Positions 2 to 26,866 of a stretch of 32,844 nucleotides of DNA are shown here, in pieces. The position numbers and the translations under genes were made by a program. The notes under the pieces are model-generated. The model made no database searches and was not told the DNA's origin. It was given only the letters and a program-made list of their open reading frames with translations. Each line of letters begins with the position of its first letter. Positions within the stretch are counted from its first letter, which is position 1. Origin of the DNA: Rhodospirillaceae bacterium (GTDB lineage Bacteria; Pseudomonadota; Alphaproteobacteria; UBA828); assembly GCA_018666805.1 (NCBI GenBank), contig JABIXB010000009.1, positions 1 to 32,844 of the forward strand. The letters run 5' to 3'.

Positions 2-1579
<1,578 letters not shown>

Positions 1580-18754: not shown

Positions 18755-19215
18755 CACATGCCGCCCACTTCGGATTGGATGCTGTCCCAGACGCCGAGCG
18801 AAAAGCCGGGCGCGACATTCAGGCCAAAGGCCGATTTGAGCACGTAGAGGGCGCCGAAGACGAAACTCACCAGCAACAGCAGGACCAGCGTTAGGAACAG
18901 AAAGTTGCCGACCGTGGCAAACGGATGGGAATGGCGCTCGGCGCGGTTGCGGCTGCGTGGCCGTTTGTCGATGCCGGTGAGAAAGACGAAATAATAGGTC
19001 CGTGCCAAAACCGGTAAGGTAAAGCGCAGATCAATGGCGTGGCGGCCCCAGGTCTTAACGCCGTAGGCGCGGATGATGACGCGGAGCTGCTCATCGCTGA
19101 AGCTCTCGGCAATATTGGCCGGCATGGATTCGGCAAATTTGCGGACAAAGTGATGATCCGCCTTGGACGGCGTGGTGCCGGGCGGGGCGGTAGTGGGTTT
19201 CGTATCCAAGCTCAA
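18754..19215 (-). CDS. Small single-pass membrane protein, function unknown
   Basis: A 153-residue protein I cannot assign. The first ~20 residues are Pro/Thr-rich, then a soluble region contains PANIAESFSDEQLRVIIRAYG and WGRHAIDLRFTLPVLARTYYFVFLTG (about 56-81). A basic patch RPRSRNRAER precedes one strong membrane segment at about 102-126, and a ~27-residue tail follows. By the positive-inside rule the N-terminal part is cytoplasmic. The start is TTG at 19215, overlapping the upstream stop as TTGA, with GGAAG nearby; its own stop overlaps manC as TGATG. This double overlap implies tightly coupled translation with the nucleotidyltransferase and manC, so it probably serves the same pathway. 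Confidence 0.75.
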   Translation of the reverse strand: MSLDTKPTTAPPGTTPSKADHHFVRKFAESMPANIAESFSDEQLRVIIRAYGVKTWGRHAIDLRFTLPVLARTYYFVFLTGIDKRPRSRNRAERHSHPFATVGNFLFLTLVLLLLVSFVFGALYVLKSAFGLNVAPGFSLGVWDSIQSEVGGM

Positions 19216-20321
19216 GCTTCCGCTTTTTCTATCGGCAGGCCGGGTAGATCATGCGTGCGCCGGATCACCAGGCCGGCCAGCCGTTCGCCGTTACGCAGCA
19301 CCAAGTGTAGGGGCGAATCATAGAGGCGCATTTCAAGCCTCAGTTTAAGGCCGTCCGGCAGGCGCGGCAACGCCAACGAGCGCATGTTGGCGGCGATGGT
19401 TTGCACAAGAGTGTGACTCGGGGCGCCGAGGCTGCGCCCGGCGAACAGCCCCTCGGCGCCCGCAATGCCGAATTCGGCCAAGAGGTCGCGGTAAAAAATG
19501 GTGCGCCGGACGCTGCGCCCGCGCCGCGCCATCGCCTCGACCAAGGACCAGTCAGGCGGCTGCCGCGCGAGCAAAAAAGCCGCATCGAACAACGCCTTGA
19601 GGCCGCGCGGCTCGTAAAAATCCCGGAACGCATGGAGCGCTAGAATGAGGAAGCTGTGCTCGGCACTGGGCACGCTGAGCGTGCCGTTCTCGGTATCGAC
19701 GCGCCGGGCGCTGGCGAACAGCTCTGGTGTCGGCACGCCACGGCTGGCCGGATAGTCGATTACCAGGCGGTGGAAATCGACGTAGAAATCGCCGCTTTCG
19801 CGCGGTGTCACCGGCGCGAAACTGGCTCTTGTCAGCGCGCCCCACGGGCGGTCCGATGCGGGGTCGACCACGCTGACATAATCCTCGGCTTTCAAATGGG
19901 CGCAAAGCGCGGGCAGGTCGGATTGCCGTACCAGGATATCGGCATCGGGCAGGAGGCGAAGATAGGGCGCGTCATAATATGCATAGGCGGTGGCGAGCCC
20001 CTTGATGGCGAGACAGGGAATCTGCTTGTCTTCGAGCGCCGCCACCAGCTCGAGCATGCCGCGTCGCGCGTGGCGCGACGCAACGGCGCTGATTTGCGCG
20101 CGGCGCAATAGTTCATCGCGCCCGCCGGAGCCGTACGTCGCCTTATCCTGGCCGAGCGCATCAAGGCAGGCCAAGGCGAGCGGTGCGCCGATCAGTTGTG
20201 TGGCAAGGGCGGCGCGTTCGGGTGTCGAAAATAATTCGCCAATAAATGTTTGCAGGAAAGCGCCGGGCAGGCCGGTCAGCGCATCGGAGCCAAGCGCATT
20301 GCGCGCGTCCCCATCAGACAC
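19212..20321 (-). CDS. Uncharacterised nucleotidyltransferase (NTP_transf_5-like)
   Basis: About 369 residues with the nucleotidyltransferase-fold pattern of the PF14907-type family. The core is LAIKGLATAYAYYD followed by LRLLPDADILV, giving a conserved Lys (~107), Arg (~122) and a probable metal-binding Asp-x-Asp (~126/128). Later FYVDFHRLV matches the third acidic position of the fold. The reaction is unknown; relatives often occur with PqqD-like and HprK-like genes, as here. GTG at 20321 is preferred because AGGG precedes it and it lies 8 bases after the upstream stop; TTG at 20351 would overlap the proteinase gene by 22 bases. Its stop overlaps the next gene as TTGA. Confidence 0.8.
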   Translation of the reverse strand: MSDGDARNALGSDALTGLPGAFLQTFIGELFSTPERAALATQLIGAPLALACLDALGQDKATYGSGGRDELLRRAQISAVASRHARRGMLELVAALEDKQIPCLAIKGLATAYAYYDAPYLRLLPDADILVRQSDLPALCAHLKAEDYVSVVDPASDRPWGALTRASFAPVTPRESGDFYVDFHRLVIDYPASRGVPTPELFASARRVDTENGTLSVPSAEHSFLILALHAFRDFYEPRGLKALFDAAFLLARQPPDWSLVEAMARRGRSVRRTIFYRDLLAEFGIAGAEGLFAGRSLGAPSHTLVQTIAANMRSLALPRLPDGLKLRLEMRLYDSPLHLVLRNGERLAGLVIRRTHDLPGLPIEKAEA

Positions 20322-20329
20322 GATTCGCC

Positions 20330-21043
20330 CTATCCCCGATGCAGCCACCAAGATTTCTCGTTGAGCGAAAAGAACGGCTTATAGTGGTGGATCTTCTTGC
20401 TCGGCAGAATCTGTTTGATCTGATTGTCGAGAATGTAGGGCTTGTTTTTGATATAGACCGCGAGGATGCCGTGCGCGACGCCGAGATTTTCGTCCTGCAC
20501 GACGACGATGCGCATCTTATCGAGAGGAAAGCCAATCGCGCGCAGCGACATATATTTGGCGATGGCGTAATCCTCGCAATCGCCATTTTGCGATTTAAAC
20601 TGGCTCGGCGTCGCCCAGTAATCATCGACGCCCCAATTGCGAATGTCGGTGATGTATTTCACGCCATTCAGATAATTGTTGATCGCCTTGACCTTCTTGA
20701 CGGTTTTCTTGCCTTCGAGGGAATTGAGAAAGGCTTGCCATTCGGCCAAGTGGCAGGTGTTGAAGGTGGCGCTGGTGCAATCGCCTTCGCCAAGCGCGCC
20801 GGCCTTGAAATAGCGCTTCAACATGCCGGTCCATTTGGGGAACGGTTTGAGGTTTTTGTTGCGAATTTCCTTGGTGCCAAAGAGCTTGCCGGCCTTGCTG
20901 GCGGCCTCGACATCGCTCATCGCGCCCGAGACGGCAACCACCACCGTCGCCGCGATCAGCACCGCCAAAAAGCGGCCGGCCAAAAGTTTGATACCCGGAA
21001 TGTTCACAAGCATCCTTAGAACGTCCGTTAAATAGGCGGACAT
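20330..21043 (-). CDS. Transglutaminase-like cysteine proteinase (BTLCP, LapG-like)
   Basis: A 237-residue protein of the bacterial transglutaminase-like cysteine proteinase family (PF06035), which includes the periplasmic protease LapG that cuts surface adhesins. The triad is Cys156 in NGDCEDYAIAKY, His191 in GVAHGILAV and Asp206 in YILDNQ. A hydrophobic signal region lies at about 20-42. The ATG at 21043 overlaps TATAAT (TATAATG), so if that is the -10 box the real start is downstream: ATG at 21013 or GTG at 21007, the latter with AAGGA in front. It heads the leftward unit and is divergent from the sensor gene. No LapA-like adhesin is in the window, so the target is unknown. Confidence 0.85.
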   Translation of the reverse strand: MSAYLTDVLRMLVNIPGIKLLAGRFLAVLIAATVVVAVSGAMSDVEAASKAGKLFGTKEIRNKNLKPFPKWTGMLKRYFKAGALGEGDCTSATFNTCHLAEWQAFLNSLEGKKTVKKVKAINNYLNGVKYITDIRNWGVDDYWATPSQFKSQNGDCEDYAIAKYMSLRAIGFPLDKMRIVVVQDENLGVAHGILAVYIKNKPYILDNQIKQILPSKKIHHYKPFFSLNEKSWWLHRG

Positions 21044-21173
21044 TATAGCGCGATGCGTGCCTATATTACAGGTGGCGAAGTCAATTGTTGGAGAGCAATA
21101 TTACTTTCCGTAAGCTATAGTTCTTAACCATAATGCGTGCAAAGCGCAGATATCAGCTTGCCGAGGGTAGGAC

Positions 21174-21452
21174 ATGTCAGAAATCGATCTGTTTGAAAGC
21201 AAAACCGAGAACCGCCGGCTGGCGGCGAATGTGCGCCTTTTGGCGGGCGTTGTGGTGCTCGGGATCGCCATTGCGGTTGGCGTGATATTCGTCTTCCGCT
21301 TTGCCGATGCGCAATATGAGCGCGATTTGCGCGACTGGCAGGTGCGTCTCGGCATCGTCGCGGAAAGCCGCCTGGAGGCGGTCAATGAATGGCTGGAAAC
21401 ACAATATGCCGGCCTGCAGGGCCTGGCTGACAACACCGCGCTTAAGCTCTAA
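21174..21452 (+). pseudogene. 5' fragment of a membrane sensor gene (TM1), cut by an in-frame stop
   Basis: The first 92 codons of a sensor. They encode a short cytoplasmic start, one membrane segment (about residues 20-43) and the beginning of a periplasmic domain ending GLADNTALKL. A TAA at 21450-21452 then stops the frame, and the very next codon, ATG, continues in the same frame with the rest of the Cache-like domain. A single base change would restore one 718-codon gene. GAGGGTAGG precedes the ATG at 21174. Whether this is a real nonsense mutation, a sequencing error, or a stop-start pair allowing reinitiation cannot be told from the sequence. Confidence 0.7.
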
Positions 21453-23330
21453 ATGACCGAACTTAGCCTCGCCGAAGGCGATATTGAGGATGTGACGGAC
21501 GAGCCGGCGCAGCGCACTTACTTGCGCAATCTTCTCGTCGCCACCGCTGATCGCACCGGGTTTATCGGCCCAGTGCTCGGCCCCGAGGTGAACGCCAATG
21601 TCGAGCGCATCGGCCTCGCCGGCCTGGCTTTGGCCGATGCCAATGGGCAAATCCTCGTCGCCACGCCGGAAATGCCGCCGGGCGATGAAAAACTGCGCGC
21701 TTTGTTGCGCGAGACGCCGCAGGGCGAGCGCGGCATGCGCGATATTTATGCCGGCGCCGCTGGCCATCCCAGCATCGCCTTTATTGCGCCGATCTTCATG
21801 CTGCAAAGAGAGGGCGATCCGGCGGCGCAGATCGGCCATGTGATCGGCATCAAGCTGGTCGAGGAAGAGCTTTATGACCGCCTCATTCAGCCCGGCACGA
21901 CCGAGGCAAGCGCCGAGGCGCTGCTCGTGCGCGAGACCCCCTCGACGGTCGAATATCTCTCGCCGCAGGCCGATGGCACGGCGCCGTTGAAGCGCAGCCT
22001 GGCGCTCGATACCACCGACCTCGCCTCGGCCTATGCGATCGAAAAGCCGGGCGGCTTCGGCCTCAAGCAGGATTACCGCGGCGACCGCGAAGTGCTGATT
22101 ACCTCGCGCGCCGTTTCGCTGGCGCCGTGGACGCTGCTTTACAAGATCGACCGCGATGAGGCGATGGCGGAATCGGATTCCAGGCGCGACGCCATCATCA
22201 TCACTTTCATCCTGGTGATTGCCGTCGTCGGCACGGCGCTGTTGGCCGTTTGGTACATGGCTTCCTCGGCGCGCGCCACTGATATGGTGGCCAATCTGAA
22301 AGATCTCGCGCTGCGTTTTGAGAGGCAGCAGAATTTCCTCCGTCTCGTTACCGACAGCCAGCCCAACGAGATCGCCATTATCGATGAAAGCTCGACCTAC
22401 CGCTTTGGCAACAAGAAGGTGGCGGACCATGCCGGCATCCAGACCCATGAAGTGCGCGGCAAGACCCTGGCGGCGATGGTCGGCCCGGTGCGGGCTAAAG
22501 TCGTTGAGAAGCTTAACCGCGAAGCCATGGCGGAGGGGGAAACGATCACCGATGTCCACCGCGAGGTGGACCCCGAGGACATAGACACTTTCCATGTCAT
22601 CCAGTCGGAGCATATCCCGTTAAGCGAAACGCTCGGCATGCCGCCTGGCGTTCTTCTGGTCTCGGAGGATATCACCGAGGCAATAAGGGAACGCGAGAAG
22701 CGCGAGCGGACCATGCGCGAGCTGGTCAACACGCTGGTGACGGTGGTCGATCGGCGCGATCCTTACTCGGCCCATCATTCGACCCGCACGGCGGAAGTGG
22801 CGCGCGCCATCGCCATCGATATGGACCTTGAGGAAAATCTGGTCGAGACGGCCGAAATTGCCGCCTCGCTGATGAATTTGGGCAAGATTCTGGTGCCGCA
22901 GGAATTGCTCACCGCCGATCGCAAATTGACCACCGAAGAGCGCATGCTGATTCGCAATTCCACCCTGACCAGCGCCGATCTGCTCGAAGGCATCGATTTT
23001 GGCGGGCCGGTGGCGGAGACCCTCGGCCAGATGCTGGAATTCGTCGATGGCTCGGGCGTGCCCAACGGTCTTGCCGGCGACGATATTCTCAAATCAGCGC
23101 AAATCTGCGCCGTCGCCAATACCTTTGTCGGCCTGATCAGCCCGCGCTCTTACCGCGAAGGCATGGATTTCATCAAGGCGGTCGATATTTTACAGGGCGA
23201 TGTCGATCATCAATTCTCGCGCGGTGTGGTCGCAGCCCTGGTCAGCCATCTTGAGAATAAGGGCGGCAAGGCCGAGGGGGAGCATTTCCGTGTGCTTGAC
23301 GAGGCGGCGGATACGGATCGCGACGCCTAG
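21453..23330 (+). CDS. Cache-PAS-HD-GYP-like sensor protein, 3' part, degenerate active site
   Basis: 625 residues read from the ATG directly after the in-frame stop. Order: rest of a periplasmic Cache-like domain (1-235), membrane segment (about 247-269), PAS-like domain (about 295-410) and HD-GYP-like domain (about 421-600). The HD-GYP fold is recognisable from LVTVVDRRDPYSAHHSTRTAEVARA, LGKILVP, EERMLIR and DGSGVPNGL. Key residues are lost: the HD pair is Met474-Asn475, the HHE before DGSG is MLEF, and GYP is GVP. It is therefore unlikely to hydrolyse c-di-GMP and may be a binding or scaffold protein. Without the 5' fragment it lacks its first membrane anchor. It lies upstream of the phosphatase and PqqD/HprK-like genes. 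Confidence 0.75.
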   Translation: MTELSLAEGDIEDVTDEPAQRTYLRNLLVATADRTGFIGPVLGPEVNANVERIGLAGLALADANGQILVATPEMPPGDEKLRALLRETPQGERGMRDIYAGAAGHPSIAFIAPIFMLQREGDPAAQIGHVIGIKLVEEELYDRLIQPGTTEASAEALLVRETPSTVEYLSPQADGTAPLKRSLALDTTDLASAYAIEKPGGFGLKQDYRGDREVLITSRAVSLAPWTLLYKIDRDEAMAESDSRRDAIIITFILVIAVVGTALLAVWYMASSARATDMVANLKDLALRFERQQNFLRLVTDSQPNEIAIIDESSTYRFGNKKVADHAGIQTHEVRGKTLAAMVGPVRAKVVEKLNREAMAEGETITDVHREVDPEDIDTFHVIQSEHIPLSETLGMPPGVLLVSEDITEAIREREKRERTMRELVNTLVTVVDRRDPYSAHHSTRTAEVARAIAIDMDLEENLVETAEIAASLMNLGKILVPQELLTADRKLTTEERMLIRNSTLTSADLLEGIDFGGPVAETLGQMLEFVDGSGVPNGLAGDDILKSAQICAVANTFVGLISPRSYREGMDFIKAVDILQGDVDHQFSRGVVAALVSHLENKGGKAEGEHFRVLDEAADTDRDA

Positions 23331-24156: not shown

Positions 24157-25455
24157 GTGACCGCGACCGGCGACACCCCGCTCGTTTGTATCTTGAGCGA
24201 CAGCGATGGGCCGCGCTTGGCCGCCGCCATTCAATCGGCGCAAAGTTTTGACCTCACGGTGCTGGTTGGCGCTTGCGCCAATAAGCCGGGCGGCGTCGCG
24301 GCCGTCGATATCGATTGGCAGGATGATTTTGCCGCCGCGCGCAATCAGCTTGCTGATATCGCACTCGAACAATATGCCGATCATCCCTATCTGCTGTGGC
24401 TCGACAGCGACGAAGAATTGATCTCCTGGCCGGCGCATGATTGGGGCGCGGAAACGGCGCCCTGGTTTTCGCTGCAAATTGAAGACACCGAGGCGCTTAC
24501 GCCGCGCCCGACCACCCGCCTGCAACGCAATAATGGTTCGCTGCGCTGGCATCATGCCATTCACGAAATGCTCTATTCCGTCACGCCGCCACAAGCCCCA
24601 ACCGCCGAACCTCTGGGTGGTGCGCTGCTGCGCCATCATGGCTATGCCGACGATCAGACGATTGCCGCCAAACTCAGGCGCAATCAGGCCATCGTTGCGG
24701 CGGAGCGCCGCTGCGGCTTTGACTATCTCTATCTCTGGGTCGAAGAGGCGCGCTTTGCCGAGGCTTTCGGCAAGGGCGCGACCATGGCTTGGACCAAGGT
24801 ATTCAACCACCCGGAAGCAGCGCCGCGCCATCCCGGTGCTATCGATCTTAGGGTCGAGGCGGCGGAATCTCTTTGCGCCTTCGGCAACACGGCGCCGGCG
24901 CTGCAATTGCTGGCGGAAAATCCACGGATCTTGGGTCTGCAATTGGCCGTCCTCGGCGCCGAGCAGCGGGAAAGTGGGGAGGTCGATGCGGCGCGGCTCG
25001 ATTTTCTCAGCCATTGCGCCCGCGCCGGCCCCGGCGATTGGCGCTATAGTTATCCGCGCGCCCTGTTGGGCGCCTCGCGCGAGGAAATTCTGGCGCTGGT
25101 CAAAGAAGTCGCGGATGAGAATGATCAGTCCGCCACAAGCGATAAGATCAAGCGAAGTGATGGGGAGCAAAAGATGACGGGCCGGTTCACGCAGAGCGAC
25201 GATTTCGACGCCGAAACTCTCGGCAACGATTTGGTTCTCATGAACAACAAGACGCGCGAGGTGCTGACCCTCAACCCGACGGCGCGCGCGGTCTGGGATC
25301 TGCTTGAGGGTGGGCTCAGCCGGGACGAGATCGGTGAAGCCTTTGGGCAAGCGTTTCCCGATATCGATAGCGTCATCCTTGGCAAAGACATCAACCGCAC
25401 CTTGGAGCATCTTCTCGCCAGCGGCCTGATTTCGCGCGACGGGGACGCGGCTTAA
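24157..25455 (+). CDS. Glycosyltransferase family 2-like protein fused to a PqqD-like domain
   Basis: 432 residues in two parts. Residues 1-339 resemble a GT-A glycosyltransferase: DDFAAARNQL (56-65), WLDSDEEL with the metal-binding Asp-x-Asp (83-85), and RWHHAIHEML, typical of GT2 proteins related to LPS or exopolysaccharide synthesis. Residues 340-432 are a PqqD-like fold: LVLMNNKTREVLTLNPTARAVWDLLEGGLS, a winged-helix domain that in RiPP pathways binds precursor peptides. GTG at 24157 begins the frame but has no good ribosome-binding site. A very strong one lies inside the gene before ATG 25174, so PqqD may also be made alone. Linker residues 318-339 are charged and low in complexity. Confidence 0.78.
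   Translation: MTATGDTPLVCILSDSDGPRLAAAIQSAQSFDLTVLVGACANKPGGVAAVDIDWQDDFAAARNQLADIALEQYADHPYLLWLDSDEELISWPAHDWGAETAPWFSLQIEDTEALTPRPTTRLQRNNGSLRWHHAIHEMLYSVTPPQAPTAEPLGGALLRHHGYADDQTIAAKLRRNQAIVAAERRCGFDYLYLWVEEARFAEAFGKGATMAWTKVFNHPEAAPRHPGAIDLRVEAAESLCAFGNTAPALQLLAENPRILGLQLAVLGAEQRESGEVDAARLDFLSHCARAGPGDWRYSYPRALLGASREEILALVKEVADENDQSATSDKIKRSDGEQKMTGRFTQSDDFDAETLGNDLVLMNNKTREVLTLNPTARAVWDLLEGGLSRDEIGEAFGQAFPDIDSVILGKDINRTLEHLLASGLISRDGDAA
25162..25176 (+). promoter_or_regulatory. Internal ribosome-binding site and start for a free PqqD-like protein
   Basis: GGGGAG (25162-25167) stands 6 bases before an in-frame ATG (25174-25176). Initiation there would give a 93-residue PqqD-like protein, close to the length of stand-alone PqqD family members. 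A TGA in another frame lies at 25158-25160, just where a separate upstream gene would be expected to end. Confidence 0.6.
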
Positions 25456-25464
25456 AAGCTGTTT

Positions 25465-26313
25465 ATGCCGGTAAAAACCTACCGCTTCGCCTGGCAAAGC
25501 CACGGTGCGCATGTTCGCACCCGGGACACGGATTTGATTGCCACGCTGGGCCGCTTTCTCGGTCTCGAGCCAGTGCCGGAGGAAGTGCTGCCGGCCGGCG
25601 AAGCGGATAATCTCATCACCATCGAGGAAACCGGCGGCGAGTTCATCATCGCCACGCATGATTGGCAATTGAGCGCCGGCAACCGTGAGCAATTGCTGTT
25701 CGCCGCCCTTGAGGCGATTGGGCAGATCTTCATCTATGATTTTCCCGGCGCGATATTTCATGCCGGGGCTTTTCTCGCGGGTAAGGGCGCGGTCGCTTTT
25801 TTCGGCGCGCCGCAAAGCGGTAAAAGCACGCTCGGCTTTGCTGCCTGGCGGCGCGGCCTGGCGCTTTTCGGCGATGACAGAATTGCGCTTATGGACGAAG
25901 GCCGGCGGGTTCAGGCATTTCCGAAATGCGTCAAACTCCGCCTGCCGGCGCTCGGCGCGCATCCGCCCGGAGCTGAAAACCTAACCTCGGAAATGGTGGT
26001 TGAGGCGGATTTGGGCCATGAAATCCGCTTCATTCTGGCCCGCACTCTGCCCGGATTTTGCCCCTACGACGCCGTTGCGGAGGTGGGTGTCGTGGTCGAG
26101 CTTAAGCGCGGTGTTGAGGGCGGCGCGACGCTCGCCCCCCTTGCGGCGGAAGATGCGGTTGAAGCCGCTCTTCAGAATGTCGTATCGCCAGAATATGAAC
26201 CGATGGAAATTGTCCGCCTGATGAAACGCCAGGCTGAGAACGGAAGATTATTCCGCCTTACGGTCGGGCCGGGCGGTACCGAACACGCCCTCGATCTGTT
26301 GCTGGAGGTGTAA
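25465..26313 (+). CDS. HprK-related kinase (HPr-rel-A type)
   Basis: A 282-residue protein related to the C-terminal kinase domain of HPr kinase/phosphorylase. The P-loop is GAPQSGKST (114-122), preceded by FHAGAFLAGKGAVAFF (98-113) and followed by FGDDRIAL (135-142), matching the acidic catalytic pair of HprK. The first ~85 residues are not the HprK N-terminal domain and include a LAPGEADNLITIEE-like strand region. HprK phosphorylates a serine of HPr; here neither HPr nor PTS genes are near, so the substrate is unknown and may be another cluster protein or a sugar/peptide. It starts 9 bp after the PqqD domain. PqqD-like plus HprK-like gene pairs are a recognised but unexplained association. 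Confidence 0.82.
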   Translation: MPVKTYRFAWQSHGAHVRTRDTDLIATLGRFLGLEPVPEEVLPAGEADNLITIEETGGEFIIATHDWQLSAGNREQLLFAALEAIGQIFIYDFPGAIFHAGAFLAGKGAVAFFGAPQSGKSTLGFAAWRRGLALFGDDRIALMDEGRRVQAFPKCVKLRLPALGAHPPGAENLTSEMVVEADLGHEIRFILARTLPGFCPYDAVAEVGVVVELKRGVEGGATLAPLAAEDAVEAALQNVVSPEYEPMEIVRLMKRQAENGRLFRLTVGPGGTEHALDLLLEV

Positions 26314-26326
26314 GTGGCGCGGTTGC

Positions 26327-26866
26327 TTAGTCGCTGAGGCCCTGCAGGAAGAGGATCAGATTGGCGCGGTCGCCTTCTTTCCTAACCCCGGCAAACGCCA
26401 TTTTGGTGCCGGGCACGGTTCCCTTCGGATTGATCAGAAACTCGTTCAGCGCCGAGATACTCCAACTTCCACCCTGTGAGGACATGGCAGCGGAATATTT
26501 AAAGCCTTCTGCCGCACCCACATCGCGGCCGATGATGTTCCAGAGATTGGGGCCGACCTTGTTCTTTCCGCCCGCCTCGGCGGTGTGACAGGCGCCGCAT
26601 TTTTTGAAGATTTTCTTGCCTTTGGCGGCATCCGCCCCGGCCAGTATTTCTTCGATTCCGGCAACTGCGGCAACCGCCTCTGCCTCCTCTTCTTCCGCTG
26701 CGGCCTCGTCGCCGTCTTCTTCCTCGGCTTCGGGCAGGGCATAGGCCATGCTGCCATGGTGATCATCAATATGATAAACATTGGTGGAGATGATCCACGA
26801 CACCATCGTGACCAATCCCGCGAAAAGAATGGCACCGGCGATTTTGTTCAGTTCAAATGGCGACAT
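26327..26866 (-). CDS. Membrane-anchored c-type cytochrome (CycM-like)
   Basis: A 179-residue class I cytochrome c. An uncleaved N-terminal membrane segment (about 8-28) is followed by a strongly acidic, Ala/Glu-rich linker (47-68) and a heme domain with CGACH at 90-94. The axial methionine is Met156 in GTKMAFAG, and [10 protein letters not shown] is typical of mitochondrial-like cytochrome c. This layout matches CycM/cytochrome c552, which passes electrons from the bc1 complex to an aa3 oxidase. The ATG at 26866 is chosen because the longer frame has no signal sequence at its start. The gene is divergent from kdsB and convergent with the HprK-like gene (13 bp apart). Confidence 0.9.

Follow-up and report, generated by a model that had tools for sequence, protein, structure and literature searches.

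The closest known counterpart of the gene analysed here is DvhD of Desulfovibrio vulgaris. As presented in the sections of PMC13090378 covered here, DvhD is built of a TM segment, a dCache domain, a second TM segment, a PAS domain and an HD-GYP domain without metal ligands, an arrangement that the gene described below shares. The HD motif of DvhD reads SQ, its double His is lost, and the protein binds c-di-GMP without hydrolysing it. A protease of the C93/BTLCP family, DvhG, adjoins the receptor, as one does at our locus, and an AlphaFold 3 model in the same sections assigns the predicted protease contact to helix alpha1' within the dCache domain. In the portions of its literature covered here, LapD/LapG of Pseudomonas fluorescens follows a logic that would be expected at our locus too, in that a c-di-GMP receptor in the inner membrane holds back a C93 protease in the periplasm. 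DvhD/DvhG are reported to have been placed in a lapD lapG strain of P. fluorescens. LapD is described in those sections of PMC13090378 as a LapD/MoxY periplasmic domain joined to HAMP-GGDEF-EAL, none of which our receptor has. The active HD-GYP phosphodiesterases PmGH (4MCW/4MDZ) and PA4781 (4R8Z) share the HD-GYP fold with it, but carry the metal-binding HD and HH motifs that it is missing.

The stretch of DNA analysed here (the window; 32,844 nucleotides) is an entire contig, G000:C262, of a 3.92-Mb draft genome of a Rhodospirillaceae bacterium in 317 contigs. On its plus strand, the frame 21174-23330 opens with ATG at 21174, runs through 92 sense codons (21174-21449) into TAA at 21450-21452, and continues in the same frame from ATG 21453 with 625 sense codons to the terminal stop at 23328-23330. 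A previous reading of this DNA, made from its letters and open frames (the sequence-only reading), had reported an in-frame TAA directly before an ATG, with TM1 and the start of a periplasmic part in codons 1-92; its coordinates, codon counts and single frame are all borne out, and TM1 and the periplasmic start lie where it placed them. The features of the locus are listed below.

21174..21452, plus strand: receptor 5' fragment, comprising the cytoplasmic N-terminus, TM1 (about 21237-21302) and the first long periplasmic helix, ending in TAA (from orthologues and a model of the G003 orthologue)
21450..21452, plus strand: in-frame TAA, within a short helix corresponding to alpha1' (about 21435-21470; from 34 orthologues and the model)
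21453..23330, plus strand: receptor 3' fragment, comprising the rest of the dCache domain (to about 22175), TM2 (about 22185-22262), PAS (about 22353-22682) and a degenerate HD-GYP domain (about 22734-23216) (from Pfam, PDB sequence matches and the model)
20330..21043, minus strand: Peptidase_C93/BTLCP protease (LapG/DvhG-type) with an N-terminal hydrophobic segment and Cys, His and Asp motifs (from Pfam PF06035, LapG structures and linkage)
19628..22258, strand not applicable: deleted in place in congener G001 (L040), and with it the whole protease gene and the receptor 5' part (from contig comparison)
20975..22389, strand not applicable: deleted in place in congener G004 (L041), and with it the protease gene's start and the receptor 5' part (from contig comparison)

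We read the gene, with a probability of roughly 0.6, as a DvhD-type receptor with a recent nonsense mutation in alpha1', most likely a null allele beside an intact protease gene, and as one of several lesions at this locus in the genus.

The identity of the receptor rests on sequence and fold for its cytoplasmic part and on fold for its periplasmic part. Pfam recognised no domain in the 5' part; the 3' part has PAS_4 and HD_5. The best matches among PDB sequences were the PAS/HD-GYP fragment of DvhD (9RC0, E = 3.4e-39) and its c-di-GMP-bound HD-GYP fragment (9RBZ, E = 1.9e-32), with the next HD-GYP chain at 4.1e-12, and a profile of 32 orthologues returned the same two fragments first (1.4e-75 and 8.9e-58; next 1.2e-36). 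A profile of the periplasmic part found no solved match among PDB sequences, and its match emerged from fold comparison only. The AlphaFold2 model of the orthologue in G003, the nearest congener, has a mean pLDDT of 87.9 and a pTM of 0.50, the latter making its domain placement uncertain; it predicts a long helix at the start (6-84), a short one after it (87-98), a domain of two lobes, TM2, PAS and HD-GYP. With this model DvhD ranks first in Foldseek, and in a VIA comparison the DvhD periplasmic domain 9RC2 tops the dCache chains (Z 20.8 over 249 residues, 3.6 A), ahead of an integrative chemoreceptor model (18.2) and of further solved dCache domains (at most 17.8). The AlphaFold2 model matches 9RC2, 9RC0 and 9RBZ in succession, giving a predicted order of TM, dCache, TM, PAS and HD-GYP that the window frame has broken at codon 93. 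As the three DvhD structures are the top matches for their respective parts, by sequence or by fold, the window gene is very probably an alphaproteobacterial DvhD-type c-di-GMP receptor rather than a new kind of gene. The sequence-only reading was right to call it a sensor gene, and did not recognise its DvhD-type identity, its protease partner or the lesions in congeners. LapD was rejected as an identity, given the HD-GYP and PAS domains and the dCache fold of the periplasmic part.

Orthologues from eight other genomes cross the stop position without a gap and with a sense codon in every case (Tyr in seven, Leu in one), which rules out two genes adjoining by chance. This alignment and the existence of intact copies agree with the earlier view of one continuous sensor gene broken at a single codon. 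We extended the comparison to 34 orthologues: 32 of the 62 receptor places outside the window's own genome, checked residue by residue, plus G003 and G021; of the remaining 30 places, that in G362 alone was inspected. The sequence-only reading had pointed to the residue that close relatives hold at the 21450-21452 codon, and this proved to be Tyr in 32 of the 34, Leu in one (L045) and unreliable in one (L108, an open frame lacking the first segment, which is retained in every count). In the G003 model, the stop falls in the short helix that would correspond to alpha1' of DvhD. Apart from the window, an in-frame stop occurs in one of the 62 other receptor places (G362), and in none of 25 class copies of a 728-residue transporter encoded in the window; these counts are too few to show an excess in the receptor. 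The G362 case (G362:C69, L149 5354-5356) is a distant orthologue with a lone in-frame TAG near the end of TM2 and an open frame on both sides.

The locus was compared in five congeners (G001, G002, G003, G004 and G005). A 12.5-kb contig of G001 passes, midway along, straight from window position 19627 to 22259, and gene order is the same on either side; in G004, a joint connects about 20974 to 22390, and some 24 bases there do not align. One contig of G005 lacks the receptor and several neighbours; a protease remnant of about 120 bp is left in it, and the flank holds some N. One contig of G002 stops inside the protease gene and another begins at about window position 26328, and the receptor was not found in that genome. 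The receptor frame of G003 is open; the contig begins 54 bases upstream of codon 2, and no C93 gene was found in that assembly. There is no ATG in G003:C98 (L039 1-60) where the window receptor starts, the contig beginning there. Loss is seen in three congeners (G001, G004 and G005), and contigs end at the locus in G002 and G003. Two genomes of another genus of the same family, G006 and G011, have the receptor-protease pair with open frames. Since this gene has also been damaged or lost by other routes in close relatives, the window gene looks recently broken and not of a new kind.

The broken copies have not drifted. Between the window and G003, NG86 omega was 0.12 for codons 1-92, 0.18 for the periplasmic part and 0.13 for the cytoplasmic part, and nine neighbouring genes compared likewise gave 0.14-0.34. 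Two outgroups agree at 205 cytoplasmic sites, of which 64 differ in the window, 60 in G003 and 61 each in G001 and G004; for 222 earlier sites the counts were 67 in the window and 69 in G003. Broken copies are as constrained as the open one, and therefore either the lesions arose recently, or the 3' part retains some role, or the stop is not real. An old pseudogene is ruled out, as constraint has not been lost.

The last of these options is the main rival explanation: a sequencing, assembly or consensus artefact, under which the cells would carry an intact DvhD-type receptor and the TAA would be a wrong or minority-strain base. The genome is a 317-contig draft, an error would equally leave frame and constraint intact on both sides of the stop with no decay, and the contigs of two congeners break at the locus, as mixed strains would cause. 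Against this, no other gene of the window that could be checked against real relatives is broken, several "possible lesions" listed in our scan having been dismissed as shadow frames on the antisense strand or as end effects. The congener lesions, two in-place deletions with flanking gene order kept and one erased locus, are moreover beyond any base error. We consider an artefact unlikely on balance, and the nonsense allele is probably real.

If the receptor is of the DvhD type, its HD-GYP domain would be expected to have lost the means of hydrolysis. The HD pair is replaced in all 33 orthologues covered (MN in 29, another non-HD pair in four; L047, a fragment, is left out of this count), and it is replaced in the window as well, where the double-His region reads ML. 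The c-di-GMP contacts of DvhD that are kept in the orthologues are L577, R650, P567, an aromatic residue or His at 652 and a basic residue at 520. Several of these residues are general to HD-GYP domains. E668 is partly kept, and the DvhD sites Y621, K582 and R569, as given in the sections of PMC13090378 covered here, are lost in the alphaproteobacterial orthologues. By analogy with DvhD, the alphaproteobacterial receptors likely bind c-di-GMP.

The divergent neighbour of the receptor (20330-21043, minus strand) matches PF06035 at E = 1.6e-20 and LapG structures at 1.8e-21 and 5.7e-20, and its Cys, His and Asp motifs are present in an alignment to LapG 4FGO. It scores 105.5 bits with the NCBIfam LapG equivalog NF045674, under the curated cut-off of 320, and is thus LapG-like and not LapG itself. 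A C93 gene stands beside the receptor in 28 of the 34 loci, divergently upstream in 26 and on the other side in two. The other six had none in the first stretch taken; five of them had none in longer stretches either, and the contig of the sixth starts at the receptor. Compared with DvhD/DvhG in the sections of PMC13090378 covered here, the window pair is divergent, its HD motif is MN in place of SQ, and its receptor gene is broken.

These results also bear on whether the gene encodes an ordinary dCache-PAS-HD-GYP sensor phosphodiesterase with no functional relation to the adjoining protease. Pfam and NCBIfam do give generic domain names only, five of the 34 loci are without a nearby protease, and two further C93/BTLCP genes of this genome, G000:C131 (L091 8180-8974) and G000:C111 (L092 6986-7747), stand near response-regulator or hybrid histidine kinases instead of a DvhD-type receptor. 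Such an enzyme is nonetheless improbable, with the metal ligands gone in 33 of 33 covered orthologues, C93 linkage in 28 of 34 loci, and DvhD scoring well over other HD-GYP and dCache chains. DvhD-type proteins might otherwise receive the annotation of HD-GYP phosphodiesterases.

The sequence-only reading had further suggested that TAAATG could permit reinitiation, which our analysis does not support. The 20 bases preceding ATG 21453 hold no purine-rich ribosome site, and its position is Met in only 14 of the 34 orthologues and Leu, Val or others elsewhere; TAAATG is incidental, since this ATG is simply the next residue, an ordinary codon without a ribosome site. A restart product would lack TM1, leaving the periplasmic domain without an export signal. 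It is therefore highly improbable that the stop is tolerated, with read-through or restart at the adjacent ATG yielding a full-length or shortened receptor: the ATG does adjoin the TAA in frame, the downstream part is still constrained and the congener copies missing the 5' part remain open too, but against these stand the absent ribosome site, the unconserved start, the missing TM1, the lack of a TTA-anticodon suppressor among 37 typed tRNAs of the genome (one of 38 matches was uncalled) and the use of TAA as an ordinary terminator. A change of genetic code was ruled out, as TAA terminates 10 of the 26 listed genes of the window.

For the DvhD-type receptor with a recent nonsense mutation, the Desulfovibrio analogy suggests how the locus might work. 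The HD-GYP domain would bind c-di-GMP and the signal would pass outwards across the membrane to the dCache domain, which at high c-di-GMP would restrain the divergently encoded LapG/DvhG-type protease; when c-di-GMP falls, the protease would cut surface adhesins free. With the receptor lost and the protease gene intact, as in the window genome, any adhesins that are made would be cleaved continuously, and with both lost, as in G001, they would be left uncut. The coexistence of receptor-only loss and double loss suggests that the module is being dropped and not set to one state. More tentatively, a DvhD/DvhG-type c-di-GMP module for adhesin release may be undergoing repeated, recent inactivation at this one locus in the genus, through nonsense mutation, deletion and erosion, with the sister genus keeping it intact; the genus would then show, at different stages, the natural and parallel loss of a choice between sticking and leaving. 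Such a natural series of lesions is one on which the value of an adhesion switch could be tested.

Receptor matches at E <= 1e-60 occurred in 62 of 385 genomes of the class, the window's own included, and no relatives were found in viral contigs. This places a recently solved receptor type (DvhD, 2026) in a wide alphaproteobacterial set, with an adjoining protease at most of the loci examined. We found no paper on a DvhD-type pair in Alphaproteobacteria, although the class-level Fig. 9b of PMC13090378, a source covered in part, may include it; in the passages covered of PMC9756655, on c-di-GMP genes in five alphaproteobacterial orders, "degenerate" and "transglutaminase" do not occur.

The Dvh operon, in the sections of PMC13090378 covered here, holds large adhesin and type 1 secretion genes in the locus, and among the Pfam-scanned proteins of the window no adhesin or dedicated type 1 secretion gene was recognised beside the pair. 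An ABC exporter fragment lies at window 20-1576, about 20 kb from the receptor-protease pair. In a LapD_MoxY_N search of the window's genome for a LapD, the controls matched nowhere. The retention_LapA model gave matches in 10 of 11 genomes searched, none at the cut-off. In three proteins of the window's genome the match coincides with a FecR domain, and two of these carry RTX repeats. These two, encoded at G000:C111 (L141 875-6883) and G000:C204 (L142 5435-10708), are large and have the FecR domain close to the N-terminus, and their first 400 residues hold one AAAG-like and one PAAG-like motif. Judged by sequence, they are candidate adhesins and possible protease substrates, offered as a lead only.

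Around the pair lie an NTP_transf_5 gene (19212-20351, minus strand), a gene for a PqqD-domain protein (24157-25455, plus strand) and one for a weakly HprK-like protein (25465-26313, plus strand), all of which are absent from G005 together with the receptor. In G004:C232 (L041 8157-8982), the homologue of window 25465-26313 is split over two frames, probably by a frameshift.
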